From NCBI GenBank assembly GCA_022592445.1, contig JABYQR010000070.1, forward strand, positions 89,081 through 153,080: 64,000 nt of DNA, in the 5' to 3' direction. A program made the translations under genes and the position numbers. Origin of the DNA: Cytidiella melzeri. Lineage: Eukaryota > Basidiomycota > Agaricomycetes > Polyporales > Irpicaceae. Positions 7,010-63,943 of the stretch are shown here, one piece after another (the first letter of the stretch is position 1; the number at the start of each line of letters is the position of its first letter). The notes under the pieces are model-generated. The model ran no database searches. It was given only the letters and a program-made list of their open reading frames with translations, and was not told the DNA's origin.

Positions 7010-7361
7010 CGAGTTTGTGTTCAAGTGTGATCGAGTTAGAACCACAGCCCTATTCAGTCTTCTTGGATAATCATCTTTCGACCCATACAACGTATGTCTT
7101 CCCAAGCTCGAAACCAATTCATTCCTAACGGATGAGCAGTAATGTAAAAGAGTGTACAAAATGTGTGGAAAAGCATCCGCCAAAACAGGGTCCATACGAC
7201 CTTGGCGCATCAAGCATCAAGGGAGAACAAGGACAGTAACAACACGAATATAGACCACACTCTCCGCGGCACTATGTTATCCAGCTTCAACGTGGCGGCC
7301 GTCCTATCCAGTATATCAGCGCGAAATATCGGCGAAAGATAAATCGATCGCTCACTCACAT
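7010..7361. other. Convergent spacer; 3' flank of KEP-A
   Basis: 352 nt between the stop codons of the WD40 gene and the first repeat-peptide gene. Positions ~7135-7250 are recognisably similar to ~8853-8965 downstream of the second repeat-peptide gene (shared AAGAGTGTACAAA, GCATCAAGCATCA and GGACAGTA blocks in the same order). This is the duplicated 3' UTR/terminator part of the tandem unit. Confidence 0.55.
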
Positions 7362-8263
7362 CTAATACGCGACGATGACACCGCTGGGCGCCTTCGAGGG
7401 AATCTCTGCCTTGAAGTTGTTGACGTCGAGGGGTGCACGCTTCGTCGCTGTGTTGGAGTAAGCGACGATGACGCCGTCAGGAGCCTTCGAAGGGACCTCT
7501 GCCTTGAAGTCGTTAACATCAAGAGGTGCACGCTTCGTTTGCGCATTAGTGTACGCAACGATGACGCCGTCGGGTGCTTTAGACGGGACCTCTGCCTTGA
7601 AGTTGTTAACGTCGAGAGGTGCGCGCTTCGTCTGCGTGTTGGAGTAGGCGACAATGACACCATCGGGGGCCTTGGACGGGACTTCAGCTTTGAAGTCGTT
7701 GACGTCGAGAGGCGCACGCTTGGTGGCCGTGTTAGAGTAGGCGACGATGACACCGTCGGGAGCCTTCGAAGGGACCTCTGCTTTAAAGTCATTGACGTCG
7801 AGAGGCGTACGCTTCGTTTGCGTGTTCGAGTAAGCAACGATCACACCGTCAGGTGCCTTGGACGGAACCTCTGCCTTGAAGTCGTTGACATCAAGGGGTG
7901 CACGCTTTGTCGCTGTGTTGGAGTAGGCAACGATGACACCGTCAGGCGCCTTGGAGGGAACCTCCGCCTTGAAGTCGTTTACGTCGAGAGGCGCACGCTT
8001 GGTAGCTGTGTTGGAGTATGCTACGATGACGCCGTCGGGGGCCTTCGAAGGCACTTCCGCTTTGAAGTCGTTGACATCGAGAGGCGCACGCTGCTGGACG
8101 GCCCGGCGTGCAACAGCATCCTAGACAACGGCGTAAGTAACCACGGAGATTGTCAAGAACAATAATCACTCACCCGCAAGGGCATGGGCATGGGAGAAGC
8201 TGTTGCCTGCCCAGCCAAGAAGACGGCCAAACCAACGAAGAAAAGGTTGCGTGCGGAGAGCAT
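7362..8263 (-). CDS. Secreted Kex2-processed repeat precursor A (KEP-A)
   Basis: Predicted secreted precursor of repeated peptides. Exon 1 (8263-8174) encodes a signal peptide, MLSARNLFFVGLAVFLAGQA, then TASPMPMPLR. After a 53-nt intron, exon 2 (8120-7362) begins DAVARRAVQQR and then runs as eight near-identical units of 31 residues (the last is 24 and ends at the stop). Each unit opens with A/TPLDVN, contains FKAEVPSKAPDGVIVAY, and closes with SNT-A/Q-TKR. The Lys-Arg at every boundary is a canonical Kex2/kexin site, so processing should release seven to eight almost identical ~29-residue peptides. Total 282 residues, no cysteine in the repeats, one conserved Tyr per unit. This is the defining layout of fungal KEPs (the group that includes Ustilago Rep1, alpha-type pheromone precursors and dikaritin precursors). 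I do not recognise the peptide itself; function is unknown. Confidence 0.85.
7365..8087 (-). repeat. 8 x 93-bp coding tandem repeat (KEP-A)
   Basis: Seven full 93-bp units plus a 72-bp last unit, in frame. Variation between units is mostly at third codon positions, with a few replacements (A/T at the first residue, D/N in DVND/DVNN, A/Q before TKR). This suggests selection on the peptide rather than very recent slippage alone. Confidence 0.9.
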
Positions 8264-9090
8264 GATTTGTGTTATTCGCTGTACTGTCAAAGTGCTGATG
8301 GATTACGGTTCTACCGTACTTGAGGTCGCTCAGCGGCCTGTTGTGGAACCTAGAGGGAGTATGTTAGCACTTCGCCCGCGGTAGTTAGCAAAGAGCGCAA
8401 CGTACAAAAAGGGACGAGAAGGGAAATGTGAGGGGCTCGAGGCTCAGGCTAGCGGTGATGAAGGTATATATACCGGTAACTCAGAAGCGCGGACAGTCGT
8501 CAAGAGGCAACGTTGTAATCATCGCCGGTAGACATACGTCCACGGCCGTTGCGCAACCATCAGCATCCGCTCATTCACGACATGTTGCGATGCAGGTTTT
8601 GGGACGTTGTCAATCCAAAGCGCTGTACTGAAAGATGGCCCACGACAACATGAGTCAAACAAGCATCAAGAACATAGCCTACTCAGATGGAACAGCATCC
8701 AAAGCAGCACGCCTCAATGAACTAATCATACCTCGGTTCCTCAACCATCGGCAAGGGCTTGAATCGCCACGCTCGGCTGCACAAGATCTCAAGCCATTTG
8801 TTTGGTCCTATGCTCGCAAGCCCATATCTACCATTTCCATCGGCGAGTGTGCAGTAGTGCGAAAGAGTGTACAAACGATAAGGAGGGGGAGAGCAACCGC
8901 CGAAGCATGAACTATACCGACTTGAAGCATCAAGCATCAGGGGGGAAAGGACAGTAGAAGTGTGAACTTCCCCGCGTACTGCAGCACGCAGTCAACCAAC
9001 GTCACCCGAATCAAGTAAAGGGACAGCTGAGGCAGGAAACGTTAGCATGAAGCAGCAGGGCTGAGCGTATGTATACTCACAAACTGACTC
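8264..9090. other. Spacer between KEP-A and KEP-B
   Basis: 827 nt. The left part (~8281-8475) is the KEP-A promoter and leader and resembles the sequence upstream of KEP-B (~9955-10146): shared ACTGTCAAAGTG, GGTCGCTCAGCG and CCTGTTG blocks. The right part (~8853-8965) is the KEP-B 3' flank and resembles the KEP-A 3' flank. No other gene is visible. Confidence 0.6.
8465..8472 (-). promoter_or_regulatory. TATA box of KEP-A
   Basis: TATATATA inside the palindrome GGTATATATACC, about 200 nt upstream of the KEP-A start. It falls at the same place, relative to blocks shared by both genes, as the TTATAAG of KEP-B. Transcription start is inferred, not seen. Confidence 0.5.
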
Positions 9091-9916
9091 CTACACAGCT
9101 CGCCTGGTGGCCTTGTATGGGACGATAACACCTTCAGGAGCCATGGACGGCTGCTCGACAGGGACAGTGTTAACATCAGGGGTTGCACGCTTGGTGGCCT
9201 TATAGGGGATGATGACACCTTCGGGGGCCATGGACGGTTGGTCGACGGGAACTGTGTTCACATCCAGGGGAGCGCGCTTAGTAGCCTTGTACGGGACGAT
9301 GACTCCTTCAGGAGCCATGGACGGCTGCTCTACAGGGACAGTATTGACTTCCGGAGCGGCACGCTTGGTAGCCTTGTATGGGACGATAACACCCTCAGGT
9401 GCCATGGACGGTTGGTCGACGGGGACAGTATTCACATCGAGCGGAGCGCGCTTGGTGACCTTGTACGGAACAATAACACCTTCAGGGGCCATGGATGGTT
9501 GTTCGACGGGGACAGTGTTTACGTCGGGAGCGGCACGCTTAGTGGCCTTGTACGGTACGGTGACACCGTCAGGAGCCATGGATGGTTGTTCGACAGGGAC
9601 AGTGTTAACATCAAGAGCGGCGCGCTTGGTAGCCTTGTATGGGACGATCACGCCTTCAGGTGCCATGGACGGCTGCTCGACAGGAACGGTGTTGACATCA
9701 AGAGGAGCACGCCTCACATACGCAGGAATAGTTTCGAAAGGCTCCTGCCTCTGTACTGCACGGCGTGCTACGGCATCCTGCGCAATATCATGAACATTTG
9801 CAAAAGATCAAGCATCATAGGTCACTTACGCGCAGTGGCATTGGCAAGGGGAGAGATACTACCTGACCGATGGATACCAACAACCCAATATAACAAAGAC
9901 TAGATGCGATGAACAT
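9091..9916 (-). CDS. Secreted Kex2-processed repeat precursor B (KEP-B)
   Basis: Paralogue of KEP-A with identical architecture. Exon 1 (9916-9830) encodes a signal peptide, MFIASSLCYIGLLVSIGQVV, then SLPLPMPLR. A 52-nt intron lies at the same place as in KEP-A. Exon 2 (9777-9091) starts DAVARRAVQR, then has a unique spacer QEPFETIPAYVRR, and then seven units of 29 residues followed by AV and the stop (257 residues in all). Each unit opens with A-x-x-D/E-VN, contains VPVE/DQPSMAPEGVIVPY and closes KATKR (RR in the last). The shared scaffold with KEP-A is DVN...PS-x-AP-x-GVIV-x-Y...TKR, so two related but distinct peptide families would be released. The QEP...AYVRR spacer could itself be cut out as a third, single-copy peptide. 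No tailoring enzymes (for example UstY-type oxidases) are in the neighbourhood. Confidence 0.85.
9094..9708 (-). repeat. 7 x 87-bp coding tandem repeat (KEP-B)
   Basis: Seven in-frame 87-bp units; the second and third residues alternate between PL, AL, AP and TP types. Basic dipeptides are at fixed 29-residue spacing. Confidence 0.9.
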
Positions 9917-10137
9917 GGCTCGCGTGGGGAAGTGACTGTTCTGTTATAGATCTGCTGCACTGTCAAAGTGACGACGGACGGTTCAACCGTTCAGAGGGTC
10001 GCTCAGCGACCTGTTGCGAGTATGAGATGGAAGCTGAGGGAATTATCAGCGCGAGGCCTGCAATGCGCAGAGCGAAGTAGTACGTACAGGTAGGGACAAG
10101 AAGGGAGCCTGCAGACCGTATCCTGTGCTGGGAGGTA

Positions 10138-10290: not shown

Positions 10291-12678
10291 ATGTCTGATC
10301 CTCGCTTTGCAAAGCTCAAAACAGACCCGCGGTTTCGCCGCATACGCAAGAAAGAGTCCAAAGTCGTTGTAGACGAGCGTTTCAAGAGTATCTTTGACGA
10401 AGGCGACGGCAAGAAAAACAAAAAGAAGGCGGGTAAGGCGCAAGGTACTTGGTTCTATGGACATCCCAGATATCACGAGTCCAACATTGACAGCAGAACA
10501 GGACGTGTTGACAAGTATGGCAGACCGTTGTCTGACACCCACGAGCAAGATACCCTGCGGCGATTCTACCGTCTGGAGAACGACGAGGATGGCGAGAAGC
10601 CAGAGGACGTTGCTACCAAGAAGGTGCCAGATTACGCTAGAGGAGCCGTGCTCCTTGAATCATCAGACGAGGAAGACGAGGAAGAGAGGAGGGAGGACGG
10701 GGAGGACAGCGACACTGGCGGCTTCGTGACACTAGGAAGGGATGTATCCAGACCAATACCGCTTCTCGCCAACGAGGACGAGGAACCAGAAATCGACCTA
10801 AACGAGGATAGCCTTGCGGAATTTGATGCACAAGCTGCGGCATATGCGAAAGAGCATGAAAAAGACGATCCTGCTCCTGAAGCGGATCGTACCAGGCGGT
10901 TGGCTGTGGTCAACCTAGACTGGGATCACGTCAGAGCCATCCATCTGTACAAAGTATTTTCATCTTTGCTATCCCCCACTGGTGCAGCCAATGCATATAC
11001 ATCGAGTAGGCCTGCCGACACGAATAAAGGCAAAGGTGTTGCTTCTCGAATTGTTCGTGGAAAGGTACTCAGTGTACGCGTTTACCCCAGTGAGTTTGGG
11101 AAAGAGCGTCTCGCACGGGAGGAGAAGGAAGGGCCACCCGCAGAACTGTTCAAGGCGGGTGAGAACGGCGACGACGACAAGGGCCGTGATCTACACGAGA
11201 CAAGCAACGGAGACGACTACAATGAGGATGCTTTGAGGAAGTATCAGCTTGACCGTCTCAGGTGCGTCTTCCACCACGTAGTGGATTATGGACTAAACTT
11301 TGTTTCAGATATTACTATGCTATTGTCGATTGCGACAGCGTGCAGACTGCCTCGTACCTATATGACGAACTGGAGGGCACAGAGCTGGAACGCTCAGCGA
11401 ACGTCTTCGATCTAAGTTTTGTCCCCGAGGAGATGAACTTCAACGATGAATTCAGGTGCATACCTCTTGATCTCTAAACAAGTCGCCCGCAACTCACTCT
11501 GACTCCTCTCCAGAGACGAGGCCACAGGAGAGCTTAACGTTCCGTATAAAGGTCTTGAATTCGTCACAGACGTACGTTCCCCAACCCCCATCTACCTCCC
11601 CTCATTCTCTGAATTGGTCCCGGCTTTTAGGCACTCCGACATTCACGAGTCAAGCTGACATGGGATGAAGACGATCCTGAACGTACCCTCGTTACGCGCC
11701 GAGCATTTTCTCGCAAAGAAATCGACGAAAACGACTTCAAGGCGTACTTGGCGTCCTCCTCGGAATCCGAAGCTGAAGAAGACCCCTCCCACCCAAAGAA
11801 GAATAAAGACAGAGATCGCTTACGTGCTCTTCTCTTGTCAGGCGGCGACGACGCACTTCCGGAAGGGTGGGATAAAGGTGGCGATGATGGTGGGGCCGAT
11901 ACCGACATGGAGATCACCTTCACGCCTGGCTTGAGTGAGAGCAAAGGGAAGGGTGAGGATGAGACGACGCTGGATAAATATCAACGGAAGATGAAAGAGA
12001 AGAAGAAGAAACGCAAAGATGAGATGAAGCAGAAGACGCACGAACAAAAAGTGGATAACAAGAAGGTAAAGAAAGGGATCGAGGACGACTTTTTCGCGGC
12101 AGACGTGGATAGTGATGGTGAGAAGGCCGTCGTGGATGCCGACGAGGAGGACGTCTCGCCGGCTAGGAAGACCCAATCCACCGCCGAGGAACTTGCCCTT
12201 ATAGCTGCTTCAGACAACCCGAACGGCGAGGCGAAACATTTCGACATGAAGGCCGTGCTCAAGGCAGAGAAGTCGAAAGGGAAGAAACGAAAGGGCAAAA
12301 AGAAGGGCAAAGACGTAGACGAGGAGAAAGAGATTCAGGAAGACTTTGCTATCGACGTCAAGGACGATCGGTTCACGGCTCTGCACGAAGACCATACATT
12401 TGCCATTGATCCTTCCAATCCTCAGTGCGCAAGATTTGCTACACTTCTCTCGAAATTCACTCACTGTTTCCCTCAGCTACAAGAAGACAAAGAGTATGTC
12501 TGCTCTTCTAGAAGAGCGATCCAAGAGACAGCACAACAAACAGTCGCCTATCGATACTGCCTATTCAACTTCAAATTCGACTAGTACGCCACAGACAAAT
12601 CTGAAGAGTCTGGTTGAGAGCGTCAAGCGAAAGAGCGCAGGTGTCGGTGGAGGCCTAGGCAAGCGACGCAAGTTGTGA
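10291..12678 (+). CDS. ESF1: Pre-rRNA processing protein ESF1
   Basis: Nucleolar factor for 18S rRNA maturation. The start MSDPRFAKLKTDPRFRRIRK is the family signature, followed by VVVDERFKSIFD and TGRVDKYGRPLS. An acidic region with SSDEEDEEE comes next, then the NUC153/RRM-like core (RLAVVNLDWDHVRAIHLYKV, VLSVRVYPSEFGKERL, YYYAIVDCDSVQTASYLYDE, LDGTE-type ELEGTELERS, FDLSFVPEEMNF). The C-terminal half is Lys/Glu-rich (KEKKKKRKDEMKQK) and ends with the ESF1 motif DPSNPHYKKTKSMSALLEER, formed by splicing at ~12428-12479, and GLGKRRKL. Four short introns are inferred. Length and domain order are normal. Confidence 0.93.
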
Positions 12679-15082: not shown

Positions 15083-16430
15083 AACTTCGAAATACCCAGA
15101 AAAGATTTATTATTGTGCACGATTCATAACAACTTCAAATACACAAACGACGAGGACGACGGGAGGGGGGGCGACGAACACTCAAATATGAATTGCCGGT
15201 GACAGAACTTACCTGATCTGGTGCAGCGCAACGTGCATTTTCCTTGGGTGGGAGATCAGGCGCGCAACAGAGTTGGCTACTGTCATCATTCAGGAGTTGT
15301 GGTGGGGAGAGGAGTTTGACGCCCTCCATCTTCCCTCCAGCTCCTCTTCCTCTCACACCTCTCAAATAATGACAGTAGTCGACTCTGTCGCACACCTTAT
15401 CTCCCACCCAAGGAAAATGCACATTGCGCTGCACCAGATCAGGTAAGTTCCGTCGCTGGCACCTCATATTTGAGTGTTTGTTGCTTCCCCCCCCTTGCTG
15501 TCCTCGTCCTCCGTCGTTTGTGTATCTGAAGTTGTGATTTGTTGTGTCTTTTCTGGGTATTCCGCTGCTACCATCGCCGTACTTGAGTATGCATCACCCT
15601 CCCTCGTCCCACACTCAAGTACGGTGATGGTGGCAACGGAATACCCAGAAAAAGACACAACAAATCACAACTTCGAATACAGAAACAACGAGGACAATGA
15701 GGACGACGGGAGGGGGGCAACAAACACTTGAATATGTATTGCCGGCAACGGAACTTACCCTGATCTGGTGCAGCGCAACGTGCATTTTCCTTGGGCGGGA
15801 GATCAGGTGCGCAACAGAGTCGGCTACTGTCATCATTCAGGAGTTGTGGTGGGGAGAGGAGGAGGTGGTGGGACAAGGGAGGGTGAAGCACACTCGAGTA
15901 CAGAGATGGTGGCAACGGAATACCTAGGAAAAGACACAACAAATGACAACTTTGGATACACAAACGACGGAGGACAAGGACAGCAATGGGGGGGGAAGCG
16001 ATGAACACTCAAATATGAGATGCCGGCGACGGAACTGACCTGATCTGGTGCAGCGCAATGTGCATTTTCCTTGGGTGGGAGATAAGGTGTGCGACAGAGT
16101 CGACTACTGTCATCATTTGAGAGGTGTGGGAGGAAGAGGAGCTGGAGGAAAGAGGGAGGGCGACAAACACTCGAGTACGGCGAATCTGGCGATGAAACTC
16201 CTCTGACTTTGGTGCAGCACAACGTGCACTCTCCTTGGGCGGGAGGTCAGGTGTGCAACAGAGCCAGCTACAGTCGAGCTCGATTGTTGGAGAGGGGGCT
16301 AGGACGAGAGATGGGAGATGTGAGAAAACCTCCAGGCGTCGGGATCTCAGAATTTAGGTGTAGCGCAATGTGCACCCCCTTGGGCGGGTTTTCTGGTAGT
16401 TTCGGGGTAGATGTTACCTCCTCTTTCGCA
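15083..16430. repeat. Array of ~280-bp repeats, one copy inverted
   Basis: A unit of about 279 bp recurs: direct copies at ~15083-15315, ~15613-15892 and ~15893-16182, a partial one at ~16183-16330, and a degenerate one to ~16430. The spacing 279 bp is taken from the block TGGCAACGGA at 15631 and 15910. Landmarks in each copy, in order: CCAGAAAA-type, ACAACTTCGAATAC-type, a G-run (GGGAGGGGGG), CACTCAAATATGA, GATCTGGTGCAGCGCAACGT, GCATTTTCCTTGGG, ACTGTCATCATT. Open frames here in several phases are by-products of the repetition. Confidence 0.75.
15316..15612 (-). repeat. Inverted copy of the ~280-bp repeat
   Basis: Reverse complement of the neighbouring units: it reads AATAATGACAGT, CCCAAGGAAAATGC, CTGCACCAGATC, TCATATTTGAGTG, then GGGTATTCCG, and ends in GTACTTGAGTATGC. 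It meets the next direct copy (CACTCAAGTACGGTG) head to head, so 15316-15892 could fold into a long hairpin. Confidence 0.7.
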
Positions 16431-55497: not shown

Positions 55498-56024
55498 TTG
55501 CACCTCTTTGACTCAGAGAACTTTTGTGACGTCGACAGTGTTGCAAGACCCTGTGAAACACAACCGTGCCCTAACCGCTATAGATATTCGTTTGAAGCAG
55601 ATTTAAACGAAGTTTATAGAATTATTGCATTGGTAACACAGGACCGGTATCTTGAACCTTTTGAACATCAGAAAGAACTCATTAGAGGTTACATAGGATC
55701 TGTACCGCATCTTGACGTACCTGCTTTAGTCAATTCATACCTTCTAGACTTAGCAAATCGTCGAGAATCAGAACCACAGAACAACAACCAGAAGTAGTAA
55801 TAGATCAGGAACCATCAGAGATCATCACAGGCACAACTTACATTGGTGACACATCCATCAATCTCTAGATAAGAACTCAGATTCCGGAGAAAACACCGAA
55901 GTCGAAGATCTTCTAGAAGAAACTTCTAAACAGACGTCATCACCTGTAATTGCACCTGTAGTACCTCATATCTCTGAAGTGTACATTCCGTACTACGACT
56001 TGATCCTTGATTGCTTTTGGTTAT
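55498..56024 (+). pseudogene. Decayed coding stretch upstream of gag
   Basis: An open segment 55498-55797 without an ATG (FEADLNEVYRIIALVTQDRY, EPFEHQKELIRGYIGSVPHL, VPALVNSYLLDLANRRE). A second segment in another frame (~55867-56024) reads NSDSGENTEVEDLLEETSKQ and VVPHISEVYIPYYDLILDCF up to a stop overlapping the gag start. The acidic, protein-like texture suggests a broken ORF; identity unknown. Confidence 0.35.
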
Positions 56025-56025
56025 A

Positions 56026-59000
56026 ATGGCTGAACCAGGAAAGATTAGCGGTAGTCAAATGATCGTCTTTGACGGTTCAAACTACAAGAAATGGTCCACC
56101 GCTATGATTGGCTTGTTCAGATATTCAAACACTTGGTTAATCGTGAATGGAACCGAAACAAAACCTACCTTACCCGCAGCAGCTGCAACCAGTTCAGGTT
56201 CTGGTACGACTACTGCACCTCCTGACACTTCTGATGAGAAGAAGGAACTTAAGGATTGGGAAATTCGGAACCAACGCGCTTTAGCTTATTTCAATATTTA
56301 CCTTGACATTACTTTGCAATCCTATCTTGAAGGAGAGGATTTGGCCTCCGAAGTGTGGAAGAAATTGAAAACAGATTTTGAGAAGACATCAGTCTTAGCA
56401 AGCTCTGTTGCGTTCAGAAACCTACTTAGCTCAACTTTTGATGAGTCTAAGGATATGAACGTACAAATTCAAGGCTTCCGTACTAAGATTGGAGATACCA
56501 AAGTTGCTGGGTTAGACCTTGATGATCAAATTAAAGTTCATATTCTTTTGTGGGCTTTACCAACGTCATATGAAACCGCCATTTCTGCATACATTGGCAC
56601 TGTTGCAAAACCCGAAGAAATTAAGTTTGACACGCTCATCCCCAAGATACTTGCGGAAGAGTTACGTCGAAAGGGTTCAAACAGTGAAAATGCGAATCGG
56701 ATTACGCAGACCACGCGTTTACCGAAGGAAAAATGCAAGAAGTGTGGGCTTTCTAACCATACTACGAGTCAGCACTGGGATAAAGGGAAACCTAACCAGA
56801 ACAAGTCTCGCGGTAATGGAAATAATCAGCAAGGATCTTCTACCAACAACAAGCAGGGTAACAAGGAGAATAAAGGAAAGAAAGGAGGACAACGAAAGAA
56901 GTCCAAAGGCAAAGGCAAAGACAAAGCGACTGTAAATAATCTTCAAGTAGATACCAAACCTGTCTTCGAGCACGATAATGAAATCATCAACGTTTCTCTG
57001 TATTCCACGTGTGAGACTGAAAGCGTTGAATGGCTCATCGACAGTGGTGCTACTAGTCACATTACCAATGAAATTGACGACTTTATCTCGTATCAACCAG
57101 CAACGGTAGCAGGTACATGCTCTGTAGCAGGTAAAGATATGACTGTCAAAATATTGGGAAAAGGAACGGTCGTACTTGACACGATCCTTGTGAAAGATAA
57201 AATACATCGCACAACTTTGAACAATGTCCTCTATATACCAGATGCGACTACAAGATTCTTTTCTCCTTCTAGAGCACTGCAACAAGGATGCACCAGCAGT
57301 GTTACATCGAAAGGATGGACAATTTATAATGAAGGAAAAGAGATTATAAATGGTCAACCTGATCATGCCGGACTTTATTGGATTAAAGGACGTCTAGTCA
57401 GGAAGATAGACTCAATTAATAAAGTTAGTCGTAATGATTATACGTTGTGGCATAATCGACTAGGACACCCAGGGAATAAGATTGTCGAAAATCTTCACAA
57501 AGGAACAAAGGGATTAAAAGAAAAGATTCCTATTCCATCGACAATTTCTCCTTGTCACGGATGTCAAGTTGGAAAAGGAAAGAGACAACCATTTCCACCA
57601 TCTATGTCGAGAGCTACAGAAGTCCTTGAATTAACTCATTCCGATCTCATTGAATATTCTACAACTTCTATTGATGGTTACAAATACGGTATGACTTGTC
57701 TTGATGATGCTTCTAGTCATGGGATGCTCTATTATCTCAAGCACAAAGATGAAGCGTTCACAAGATTCAAAGAATACAAGTCATGGGCCGAAAACCAAAC
57801 AGGAAAGAAGATGAAGAAGTTCAGATGTGATGGTGGAACAGAGTTCATTAATAATGAGTTCAAGGATTATCTGAAGGAACACGGAATAGAATTACAAATG
57901 TCTGTACCGTATACTCCACAACAAAATGGTAGAGCTGAGCGATGGCAACAGACCATAAAATATAAAGCCGAAGCATTGCGTCAGCAAGCTGGGTTATCAA
58001 ATGGTTTCTGGAAGCTTACTTGCGAAGCAGCGGTATATTTAAATAACCGTCTACCTAATGTACGATTAAACTGGCAGACACCTATAGAGAGTTTTCTGGG
58101 TATAAAACCAGATATCTCAATGCTTCGTGTATTTGGATGTCGTGCATACGTCCATGTACCGATCAAGAGTCGTCAGAACAAGTTGTCACCAAAAGCAACT
58201 CCTATGATATTCGTTGGATATGAACCGGGTGTAAAGGGTTACCGGTTCTGGGATAAACAGCGAATCGTCATTGCTCGCGATGCAGTATTTGACGAGACTC
58301 ATTTCCCGTATCGTAAAGATATTACTCCTTCCAAACAACCTTTAGTCGGCGATAACAGTGATAATAACACTGTTCCTCCACACGATAATTTTTCACCTTT
58401 TGAAGAGAATGATGAACAAGGTCACCAAGATTCTGATGATGGAGATGATGATCATCCAGAGCACCAAGCACCTACTCATCCTTCTCGACAACAGCAGCAA
58501 TTCCCTTCAGCTCCGGTTCTTGACAAAGAACCACAACCACAAATCAAACGAGGACCTAAGCCTAAACCACCTTTGCCACCACCTATCAACCAGAACAAAC
58601 GTTCAACTGCTGGAAAAAATCCTAAACTTTCCATGCGGCCGGTGGATATGCAGAAAGCTTTAGAAAAGCAAGTGGCTAAGGACAAAAAGGAAGAACAAAA
58701 TGAGCTTCGTTTGAGAGCTGAATGGAACTCGAGAACACGCGCGAGATCTCCGGTTGCAGGGCCATCCAGATTACGGATACCTTTGCGATCAGGAACGTCA
58801 TCACGTCAACCCTCGAGATCACCTTCCGTTGAACCGGGTCCAGAACATCAAACTCTATCAGGAGGCTTAACTGATGATGATGATTCTGCAGAAATTGATG
58901 ACGAGACTCTTAATTCAATTACTGCTTATTCAATCAATGAATATCCACAGACGTGGAAGCAGGCAATGAAAAGAGATGATCGGGATCAATGGTTTGCTGC

Positions 59001-60490
59001 TGCACAAGACGAAATTGATTCTCAAATGAAGAATAAAACTTGGACGCTTGTACGACGACCAGACGCATCACGCAAAATTGTGAAATGCAAATGGGTCTTC
59101 ACCATAAATCTGATGGTCGATATAAAGCGCGTCTTGTTGCAAAAGGATTCACCCAAGTTGAAGGAATTGATTATCAAGAAACTTTCTCACCAGTCGCACG
59201 TTTTGAATCCATACGCATGCTACTAGCTATAGCTGCACTCGAAGATTGGGAAATCGAGGCATTGGATGTGAAAACAGCTTTCCTTTACGGCGAACTGGAT
59301 GAAGAAATCTATATGGAACAACCAGAAGGTTTCGTGGAGAAGGGAACGGAGAACCATGTTTGTTTGCTTAAGAAAGCCATTTATGGACTTAAACAAGCTT
59401 CACGAACATGGAATATCAAAATTCATAACACTCTGATAGAATTAGGCTTTGACCGGATTCATTCAGATGCTGGTGTTTACGTGTATCGGCAACAAGGGGG
59501 GAATTTAATTCTCATTCTATATGTTGACGATATATTTCCGATAGGAAATAGTAAACTTGCTATGTCTGCACTTAAGAAAAATCTTATGGATCGCTATGAG
59601 ATGCGTGACTTAGGAGAAGCTAAGCTTATTCTAGGCATGCGTGTGCAGAGAGATCGTAAAGCTAAAACGATTCTACTTGACCAAGAGTCGTATATTCAAG
59701 AGGCTTTAAAACGATTTAATATGGCAAATGCTAATCCTGCTCGGACACCATTACCTTCAGGTGCTGTACTACAGAAGGCAGATTCTGACTACAAAGCAGA
59801 TTCTGGTTTACTGAGACAGTATCAAGCGTTGATTGGCACGCTTATATATGTTATGATTGGTACTAGACCAGACATTTCATATGCAGTCATACGTCTTTCA
59901 CAGTACATGTCAAATCCAACTGACCACCATTATAAATCAGCTAAATATATACTGAGATATTTGCTTGGAACGCAGTCCTATGCGATCAAGTATAATGGAT
60001 CAAGTAATGCTGGTATTATTGGTTATTCGGATGCAGACTGGGCTGAGAATAAAGACGACAGACATTCGACAACAGGATATGTATTTCTTTTGGCTGAAGG
60101 AGCAATTTCCTGGACTTCTAAAAGCAGAAAACCGTTGCTCTATCATCAATGGAATCAGAATACATGGCCTTGTGCGAAACTTCCAAGCAATGTTATTGGT
60201 TGCGCACCGTGCTCAAAGAATTGGATTTAAAACAGCAAGAGCCTACCATTCTATGCTGTGATAATCATGGTGCTATTTACTTCACCAAGAATCCAAAGAT
60301 AGAGTCACGCTCAAAGCATATTGACATTCGATATCATTATGTTAGAGAGTTTGTCGAAAATAAGAATGCCGAACTATATGCAGTTCCAACTGAAGAACAG
60401 ATTGCTGATATCATGACAAAGTCATTGGCATTTCAGAAGCAATCATACTTCAGTGGGAGATTAGGTCTAATTGATCTAAACACTCACTAA
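56026..60490 (+). pseudogene. copia gag-pol, two frame breaks
   Basis: Starts MAEPGKISGSQMIVFDGSNY. Gag of the UBN2 type (YKKWSTAMIGLFRYSNTWLI, WKKLKTDFEKTSVLASSVAF) with a zinc knuckle CKKCGLSNHTTSQHW (CCHH). Protease WLIDSGATSHIT. Integrase zinc module LWHNRLGHPGNK...CHGCQVGK; DDE core with SDLIEYS, FRCDGGTEFINNEF and NGRAERWQQ. RT: ARLVAKGFTQVEGIDYQETF, ALDVKTAFLYGELDEEIYME, ILYVDDIFPIG. RNase H: SDADWAENKDDRHSTTGYVF, CCDNHGAIYFTKNP, HIDIRYHYVREF. The frame shifts at ~59100-59112 (just before the RT ARLVAKGF) and again at ~60120-60130 (in RNase H). Catalytic residues of each domain are otherwise present. The intact form is one gag-pol frame. Confidence 0.93.
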
Positions 60491-61826: not shown

Positions 61827-63943
61827 TTACTCCCCCTCAGCGAGGTGAAACTGGACGAGCCCTAAGGACTCAGAGTGACGAACGTGAGCTTCAGCCGGTA
61901 AAGACTTGGTGAAGATGTCAGCGGGGTTGTCAACTCCAGGGATTCGAACCAATTCGACAAGGCCTTCGGTGACACATTCGTGAACAGCATGCGCAGTGAC
62001 GCGAGTATGTTTTGAGCAATGCTTCACGTGGGTGGACTTGGAAGCGTCTACAGCACTCTTGTTGTCGCAATGAAGGACGACAGGTAGAGGAAGAGGTTGC
62101 TCAATTTGATCAGTGAGAATCTTCAACCACTTGAGTTGCTCGCAAGCTTCGTGAGCCGCAAAGTATTCTGAGTCGAAGGTAGACTTCGCCACAGAACGTT
62201 GTTTGCGCGAGGACCAGCAGACAGCGCCATAGCCAAGGAAATAAACCCAGCCAGAGGTGGAGAGCGAGTCGTCTAAGTCGCCGGCAAAGTCGGCGTTGGT
62301 GTAACCGACAAGATCGTCAACGCCTTCGTCATTATGGCCTAGACAAAGTCGGAGACTGGAGGTACCGCGAAGGTAGCGAAGGACATGATATGCAGCGCGG
62401 AGATGCAGCTGCGAGGGGTTGGACTGGTATTGACAGAGCTTCGCAACGGCGTACGAGATGTCAGGTCGAGTTCCAAGGGAGGCGTACATGAGTGAGCCAA
62501 GTATGCTGCGGTAGGTGTGGATAAGTGCTGGGTCGCACTGCTCCTTGGGATTTTCATTGTGTACCAACTGGATACCGGTTGGAAGCGGTGTGGAAGCGGG
62601 ATTGGAGTCCTCATGCTGGAAGCGTTTGAGAACGGAATTTATGTAGACCTCTTGGTCGAGGTAGATGAGACGACTCCCCCTATCCCGAGTGATACAAATA
62701 CCGAGATAGTGCTTGAGCTCGCCTAAGTCTTTGAGATCGAAATGGCGACGAAGAGCGTCCTTGGTCTCCTTGATGAGGGTGAGACTGTTTCCCATAATAG
62801 TGAGATTGTCGACGTAGCAAACAATAATTTGGAGGGCTCCCCCTCGTCGACGAGTGAAAATGGCGACATCACCTGTGTCGTAACAGACGAAGCCGAGTTC
62901 TTCGAGGCATGCCTTGAGCGTGAGGAACCATTGGCATCCTGCCTGCTTTAGGCCATAGATTGCCTTATGAAGGCGGCATACTTTGCCTTCATCCAGTACA
63001 AACCCTTCAGGTTGCTCCATGTAAACCTCCTTGTCCAAAGATCCGTTCAGATAGGCTTGTTGGAAGTCAATCTGGTGAATTTCCCAGTCCAGAATAGCAG
63101 CCAAAGCGACGAGGTATCGCCAAGACTCCAGACGGGCGACGGGAGCGAAGGTGTCTGTGAAATCGATGCCTTGAACTTGCTCAAAACCCTTGGCTACCAG
63201 ACGTGCCTTATAACAATCAACATTACCGTCCTTGTCGAGTTTGAGTTTGTAAACCCATTTGCTCTTAATTGCCTTGCGACCAGGGGGCAAATCAACTAGT
63301 TTCCATGTTCCAGTGTCCTGGAGACCTTTGATTTCGGCCTCCATAGCTGCACGCCAGTCATCTCGATCCGGTGAACCCATAGCCTGCCAATAGGTACGAG
63401 GCTCCCCCTGAGGCGTAACTGCCGCTGCCAGCATGACGACCTGCTCGTCAGATAGGACAGCGCCGGCGTCAGCTTTTGCTTTGCCTTTGCCTTTGTAGGG
63501 GACCTTGTTACCGCGAGCCCGAGTCGTCTCCTCAATCTCTTGTTCAGTAGCAGCCCACATAGACTGGAGACGCTTTGCATCACGAGGTACAACAGTGCGT
63601 TGTGAACGACGTGTAACACCAGCATGAGCTGGGTTGGAGAATGGAAGGTAGTCATGTGGAGAAGCGGCCGGAAGACGATTGGGATTTGGCTCGAGTTTGG
63701 GAGAAGGTACAACAGGAGGGCCTTTCCATTTGGAAGGCGAGAGTGGCATGGATGAAGAGCTAGGCTCTGGTTCAGCAGATGTGGACGAACTCGGAATAGG
63801 AGTAGAGGGACGCGGTATCCGTGAAGGCGTAGGAGCCGACGTGGATGTTGCGTCAGGAGGAGGTGGTTGTTGAGTTGGGGCACTTGCGACGTGGTAGTAG
63901 CCGGCTGCAAAGAGGGCGTTAAAGGGAGTGAAAGTTCAAGATC
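61827..63943 (-). pseudogene. copia pol (RT and RNase H), active site mutated
   Basis: Minus-strand frame open from ~63943 to the stop at 61827. A Pro/Ser-rich linker precedes YWQAMGSPDRDDWRAAMEAE, GTWKLVDLPPGRKAIKSKWV, YKARLVAKGFEQVQGIDFTD-TFAPVARLESW, IDFQQAYLNGSLDKEVYMEQ and KAIYGLKQAGCQWF. The RT catalytic motif reads CYVDNLTIMGN instead of YVDD. RNase H reads GYTNADFAGDLDDSLSTSGW, where most relatives have SDAD. Then LHCDNKSAVDASKSTHVKH and VDNPADIFTKSLP. Just upstream (~63900-63946) the frame meets a stop while another frame continues the Pro/Thr-rich linker, so there is probably one more frame break. Integrase and gag lie beyond the right edge. Confidence 0.88.

Follow-up and report, generated by a model that had tools for sequence, protein, structure and literature searches.

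The window, a stretch of 64,000 nucleotides, carries two neighbouring genes whose products consist mostly of short repeats bounded by dibasic sites, which raises the question of whether these are real genes for secreted peptides and whether such peptides are already known. We found that the span of the first-pass annotation, 7362-9916, is exact, running from the stop codon of one gene (gene A) to the ATG of the other (gene B), and the observation of a repeat-peptide gene pair was confirmed; the annotation had not given the strand, which is minus for the two genes. As shown below, the gene pair is real and well conserved and its family is already known, while its N-terminal variant is distinct. 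What is new in the window is that two diverged paralogues stand in tandem, that the units are extended by DVN and that their N-terminus is altered. The features of the pair are as follows.

7362..8263, minus strand: gene A, a KEP precursor of 282 aa when spliced, predicted from the sequence (GTGAGT...CTAG intron, in-frame join)
8174-8263, minus strand: gene A exon 1, 30 codons, with a signal-peptide-like start (by eye) and the ASPMPMPLR leader
8121-8173, minus strand: gene A predicted intron, 53 nt, phase 0, from splice signals and frame
7362-8120, minus strand: gene A exon 2, opening with DAVARR, read from the sequence
7362..8087, minus strand: gene A array of 8 units, [A/T]PLDVN[D/N]FKAE[V/I]PSKAP[D/S]GVIVAY
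9091..9916, minus strand: gene B, a KEP precursor of 257 aa when spliced, predicted from the sequence (GTAAGT...GCAG intron, in-frame join)
9830-9916, minus strand: gene B exon 1, 29 codons, read from the sequence
9778-9829, minus strand: gene B predicted intron, 52 nt, phase 0, from splice signals and frame
9091-9777, minus strand: gene B exon 2, opening with DAVARR, read from the sequence
9709..9777, minus strand: first part of gene B exon 2, reading DAVARRAVQRQEPFETIPAYVRR and including the ETIPxYV[K/R]R segment common to Tricholoma P0002 and P0003
9100..9708, minus strand: gene B array of 7 x 29-aa units, A[P/A/T][L/P][D/E]VNTVPV[E/D]QPSMAP[E/D]GV[I/T][V/I]PYK[A/V]T[K/R]R

The predicted introns occupy the same place in the two genes, and the N-terminus of each protein is typical of a signal peptide as judged by eye. 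DAVARR is present in both genes, as had been noted, directly after the predicted intron, and the short leader given as SP(M/L)PMPLR is found in gene A (ASPMPMPLR), while gene B reads SLPLPMPLR. The eight units of gene A had been described as 31 residues each with a KR or RR end; this is correct for seven of them, all ending in KR, while the last is 24 residues long. Units 1-7 thus carry SNTATKR-type tails and unit 8 stops at its tyrosine (GVIVAY-stop), and unit 1 is preceded by a monobasic QQR. Gene B has the seven 29-residue units that were claimed for it (six ending in KR, one in RR) and, ahead of the array, an additional EPFETIPAYVRR segment that the annotation had missed. With eight and seven units, the genes have the proposed KEP layout of at least three similar repeats split by KR or RR, and their units bear out the claim of two related peptide families. 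The TRF scores of the arrays (818-1006 for gene A and 686-826 for gene B) are beyond chance. On the plus strand, two antisense frames (7254-8165, 303 codons; 9088-9903, 271 codons) are open across the arrays, perhaps as a consequence of the codons that the repeats use.

The units are held to nearly the same peptide. Between the units of gene A, the variable sites at codon positions 1, 2 and 3 number 4, 1 and 23 (24 codons), and between those of gene B 2, 4 and 25 (29 codons). By NG86, mean dN divided by mean dS gave 0.021 in gene A (24 of its 28 pairs of units) and 0.042 in gene B (20 of 21 pairs), the remaining five pairs, for which dS is undefined, being left out of the means. Since silent sites between the units of A, and between those of B, are near saturation at a dN/dS of 0.02-0.04, the copies must be old and each held to nearly one peptide, which argues against recent gene conversion or slippage as the cause of their likeness. 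Chance or recent slippage as the origin of the repeats was rejected as well, since the silent sites are near-saturated yet the peptides are kept. Fifteen copies with saturated silent sites and near-constant peptides strongly indicate selection on the peptide itself.

Homologues of the core in other Agaricomycetes, which the first-pass annotation had suggested looking for, were found. The 27 relatives (P0001-P0027) came from three protein searches, named ones being from Tricholoma matsutake, Termitomyces, Lentinula edodes, L. raphanica, L. lateritia and Amanita muscaria, and also from Serendipita vermifera; two further relatives are from the Sordariales (Naviculisporaceae). The weakest relatives have best E-values of 0.012 (P0011), 0.068 (P0012), 5.7e-4 (P0026) and 8.8e-4 (P0027). 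The core in common, to which there are exceptions, can be written approximately as [I/V/M/F]-P-x-[E/Q]-x-x-[V/T]-K-[S/A]-x-x-G-x-[I/V]-x-[P/A]-[Y/F]. Tricholoma and gene B have three modules in common, namely the leader, ETIPxYVKR and the core, with SPLPMPFR...LETIPIYVKR...IPAEIAVKAPDGIIVPYKR in Tricholoma matsutake and LPLPMPLR...FETIPAYVRR...PVEQPSMAPEGVIVPYK in gene B. Core relatives of the Sordariales, P0011 and P0026, have cores such as IPAEVPVRTDATGNIIPFGRR at weak E-values, and the peptide family may, judged by these sequences, span the Dikarya.

A profile was built from 64 distinct cores, with the window and P0001 excluded, duplicates collapsed and the printed C. cinerea core included. 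Gene A scored 122.4 bits and gene B 50.5 bits, compared with best scores of 39.3 (whole protein) and 11.4 (single domain) in 1000 plain and 1000 unit-wise shuffles, and among 442 ORFs of the window only the two exon-2 ORFs gave comparable scores. Within the full proteins, single units scored 18.6-20.2 bits in gene A and a weak 4.8-14.3 bits in gene B, where the scores of units 2, 4 and 6 are lower than 11.4 and that of unit 6 is also lower than the best shuffle of gene B itself (7.1). Because window peptides were in the queries that found the relatives, the profile test is partly circular, and the printed C. cinerea peptide QIPAELPTKSINGNIEPYK was therefore tested directly, which is not circular. 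Its score was reached by 0 of 5000 shuffles against one gene B unit and by 6 of 5000 against one gene A unit; against three more cores, the counts per 5000 were 0 for Tricholoma and 18 for one P0001 core, and the other P0001 core was no better than shuffles (320/5000). The last of the three protein searches brought up nothing from C. cinerea, and the comparison with that species is with the printed peptide. Since the Termitomyces precursor P0014 alone reaches gene A only at an E-value of 1.2, the family link runs by chain and profile, without a single strong pairwise match. The Pfam matches of gene A had no relation to those of gene B, and all stayed under the curated cut-offs; among PDB sequences, the first 103 residues of gene A had no significant match (best E 0.077, TolB).

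These relatives overturn the statement that no peptide with this core had been described, as they link the window to KEP 497993 of C. cinerea, a precursor with linear peptide products seen by mass spectrometry (Vogt et al. 2022, PMC9769878). Judged by the relatedness of the cores, genes A and B appear to belong to this agaricomycete KEP 497993 family. In that study, pyro-QVPVDEPA was detected in culture fluid and mycelium, and pyro-QIPAELPTKSINGNIEPY, both with K and without it, mainly in premature caps; at least 13 homologues are given in other species (PMC9769878). The study also states that the 497993 knockout had no growth or fruiting phenotype under axenic conditions, that synthetic 497993 peptides had no antibacterial activity, and that the authors propose a role with the biotic environment; the peptides persist in kex knockouts according to the authors, the cap peptides having been checked in the kex2a strain only, as the others did not fruit (PMC9769878). 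In searches of the open-access literature, this was the only functional study of the core to come up, and no function was found in it. Like the window genes, KEP 497993 has a KEX2-spaced core P-x-E...K-[S/A]-x-x-G-x-I-x-[P/A]-Y, and its QVPVDEPA looks similar, on visual comparison, to TVPV[E/D]QPSMA in gene B. In contrast to KEP 497993, the window units have the DVN extension, reside in two diverged tandem genes and start with X-Pro or X-Ala instead of Gln, so that pyroglutamate is impossible there.

The window family may also be the KEP type #7 (G-1/P-2) of Umemura 2020, the most widespread KEP type there, with 49 genera (PMC7329392). We infer this identity from shared genera and Tyr content: the type #7 genera Coprinopsis, Pleurotus, Hypsizygus and Panaeolus are hosts of 497993 homologues, Termitomyces, also a type #7 genus, is the source of relative P0014, and type #7 has a high Tyr content like the window family. 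On the other hand, Lentinula, Tricholoma, Amanita and Serendipita, all of which have relatives, are missing from the type #7 genus list (PMC7329392).

The two ends of the peptides differ in how firmly they are kept. At the N-terminus, counting relative sites with a dibasic cut soon before the core, Gln starts the core at 53 of 89 sites but in 0 of 15 window units, whereas Ala or Pro stands second in 14 of 15 window units and at 6 of 89 relative sites; since repeats within one gene are non-independent, these counts refer to sites and not to events. The Gln start is a feature of the known 497993 product and need not define the family. An X-Pro or X-Ala start is the form that is trimmed by an STE13-type peptidase, and these sequences suggest a change of N-terminal chemistry in the window pair, from pyroglutamate-capable to STE13-type. 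The 14 units have one X-Pro/X-Ala dipeptide each, and gene A unit 1 follows the monobasic site. At the C-terminus, the very last residue of gene A and of 15 of the 27 relatives is a Tyr or Phe, against a combined background of 5.6% for these two residues. This suggests that the mature peptide ends at the aromatic residue, in agreement with the C. cinerea form ...NIEPY that was detected (PMC9769878). Gene B and 12 of 27 relatives end elsewhere, some of these relatives looking like incomplete or misread records.

Matches to processing enzymes were found elsewhere in the genome. A kexin P-domain match lies on contig C112 and a DPPIV_N match on contig C191, the latter with one in-frame stop that is perhaps an intron. 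A search for UstYa gave eight matches in the genome and none on the genes' own contig (C668; 153,080 bases), the exon-wise counts being lower bounds. This agrees, as regards cyclisation genes, with the earlier claim that no tailoring genes are adjacent, and it makes linear products likely. The suggestion that the peptides are unmodified is probably correct for this reason and because the peptides of the C. cinerea relative are linear.

We propose that the precursors would enter the secretory route and be cut by kexin after KR or RR, and probably also after the QQR before gene A unit 1. A Kex1-type carboxypeptidase would then strip the basic residues, and an STE13-type dipeptidyl aminopeptidase may take off the X-Pro/X-Ala pair, with the predicted release of eight linear variants of LDVNDFKAEVPSKAPDGVIVAY(SNTAT) from gene A and seven linear variants of [L/P]DVNTVPVEQPSMAPEGVIVPYKAT from gene B. 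The monoisotopic masses calculated for such linear products of gene A are 2988.508, 3018.519, 3028.551 and 3045.529 for untrimmed 29-mers, 2820.418, 2860.461 and 2877.440 after loss of the dipeptide, and 2499.337 for the final 24-mer; for gene B they are 2769.389-2821.457 for untrimmed 27-mers and 2627.315-2665.367 after trimming. The bases of this scheme are the repeat constraint, the homology and the kexin and DPPIV domain matches seen here, and the linear secreted peptides seen for the C. cinerea relative. The many copies per transcript together with the tight sequence constraint fit a molecule that is recognised by a specific partner. We consider it fairly probable that genes A and B, as paralogues of the 497993 family, provide a linear, secreted extracellular signal for encounters with neighbouring mycelium or other organisms. 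Processing in this fungus, a receptor or target and a biological role are all inferred here, the signal role from constraint and copy number only. The lack of a phenotype in the relative's knockout fits a biotic role, and would equally fit redundancy or the lack of an important role.

A pheromone-like peptide, processed in the manner of alpha-factor and sensed by a receptor of the producing fungus, would account for the STE13 signature, which follows a basic cut in 14 of 15 units as in alpha-pheromone-like KEPs, and for the DPPIV domain match, and hormone roles have been proposed for such basidiomycete KEPs (PMC6339444). However, the units have a single dipeptide and not a run of them, X-Pro/X-Ala occurs at only 6 of the 89 relative sites, X-Pro may simply shield the N-terminus, and growth and fruiting were normal in the C. 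cinerea knockout (PMC9769878), so we consider a pheromone unlikely. It is slightly less probable still that the released units act like Rep1 of Ustilago maydis and form amyloid-like fibres that make aerial hyphae water-repellent. Rep1, compared here by description, also has Kex2-processed repeats of ~30-50 aa, and its peptides of 35-53 aa (PMC4617103) are near the 24-31 residues of the window units, whose GVIVAY/GVIVPY stretch is aggregation-prone on the AGGRESCAN scale (1.23 in A and 1.17 in B). This hot spot is also present in Tricholoma (1.21) and Serendipita (1.17) but not in C. cinerea (0.28), Termitomyces (0.33) and Lentinula P0016 (0.14) on the same scale, and since it is not kept family-wide, the Rep1-like reading is weakened. 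In addition, the C. cinerea peptides came out as extractable peptides (PMC9769878), and Rep1 is described without an STE13 signature (PMC6339444), whereas the window units have one. An AlphaFold model of gene A exon 2, run with six relatives, had a mean pLDDT of 32.3 and was uninformative.

A cyclic product similar to the dikaritins (ustiloxin, phomopsin, asperipin-2a) is very improbable. Dikaritins likewise derive from Tyr-containing Kex2-processed repeats, every window unit has a Tyr as a possible crosslinking site for a UstYa-type enzyme from another locus, and the eight UstYa matches would offer candidates for that enzyme. In contrast to dikaritins, there is no UstYa match beside the genes or anywhere on their contig and the peptides of the C. 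cinerea relative are linear (PMC9769878), and these two points weaken the cyclic reading. Moreover, no UstYa, methyltransferase or P450 domain was found among 20 window ORFs compared with Pfam (11 without a match), a scan that gave one FMN reductase ~37 kb from the gene pair, and, if type #7 is the same family, none of its 64 members has DUF3328 nearby (PMC7329392).

The linear signal that we favour belongs to a family that is widespread in mushrooms, with a studied member whose peptides are really made. Within it, the window pair shows a fixed part (E...G-x-I-x-[P/A]-Y) and a free part (the N-terminal cap and the tail), which indicates the region to test as the recognised part. A bolder version is doubtful: an ancestral mushroom signal, with likely Sordariales relatives, would here have been duplicated and re-capped, from Gln or pyroglutamate to an X-Pro/X-Ala start trimmed by a dipeptidyl peptidase and extended by DVN, giving two private dialects in which the aromatic C-terminal motif is recognised.

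To judge by their sequences, genes A and B are probably tandem paralogues, and similar blocks flank them on both sides.

8278-8343, minus strand: upstream block of gene A, 79% over 66 columns compared with gene B, with two inverted repeats
9954-10016, minus strand: upstream block of gene B, the counterpart of the gene A block, with two inverted repeats
7133-7238, minus strand: downstream block past the gene A stop, 73% over 111 columns compared with gene B
8848-8956, minus strand: downstream block past the gene B stop, the counterpart of the gene A block

The upstream block is better kept between the genes than exon 1; exon 1 and the intron gave no significant nucleotide match between A and B (best E 1.1). 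The block may lie within the 5′ UTR, and a 5′ UTR intron is possible. Its 15-base core, GGYCGCTGAGCGACC, has exact matches in the genome at these two genes alone, and on this ground a regulon signal was rejected. The second inverted repeat reads ACGGTNGAACCGT, and the RNA fold of the block equals that of shuffles (z -0.02 and 0.01). In the 49.7-Mb assembly, exon-wise searches with P0014 and P0002 (E up to 10), which give lower bounds, returned no further family member beyond a weak match on contig C224. The Tricholoma P0002 query recovered both A and B, while Termitomyces P0014 recovered A at E-values of 1.2 and 2.3, gave the C224 match at 5.1 and did not recover gene B up to 10.

Elsewhere in the window, an ESF1-like gene (RRM_ESF1 and NUC153 domain matches) lies head-to-head with gene B at 10291-12581 on the plus strand, and a 280-bp unit occurs in two tandem copies at 15610-16178 with 81% matches. 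Pieces of a Copia-type retrotransposon, with gag, integrase and reverse transcriptase domain matches, are found at 56011-59223 on the plus strand and at 61830-63935 on the minus strand.
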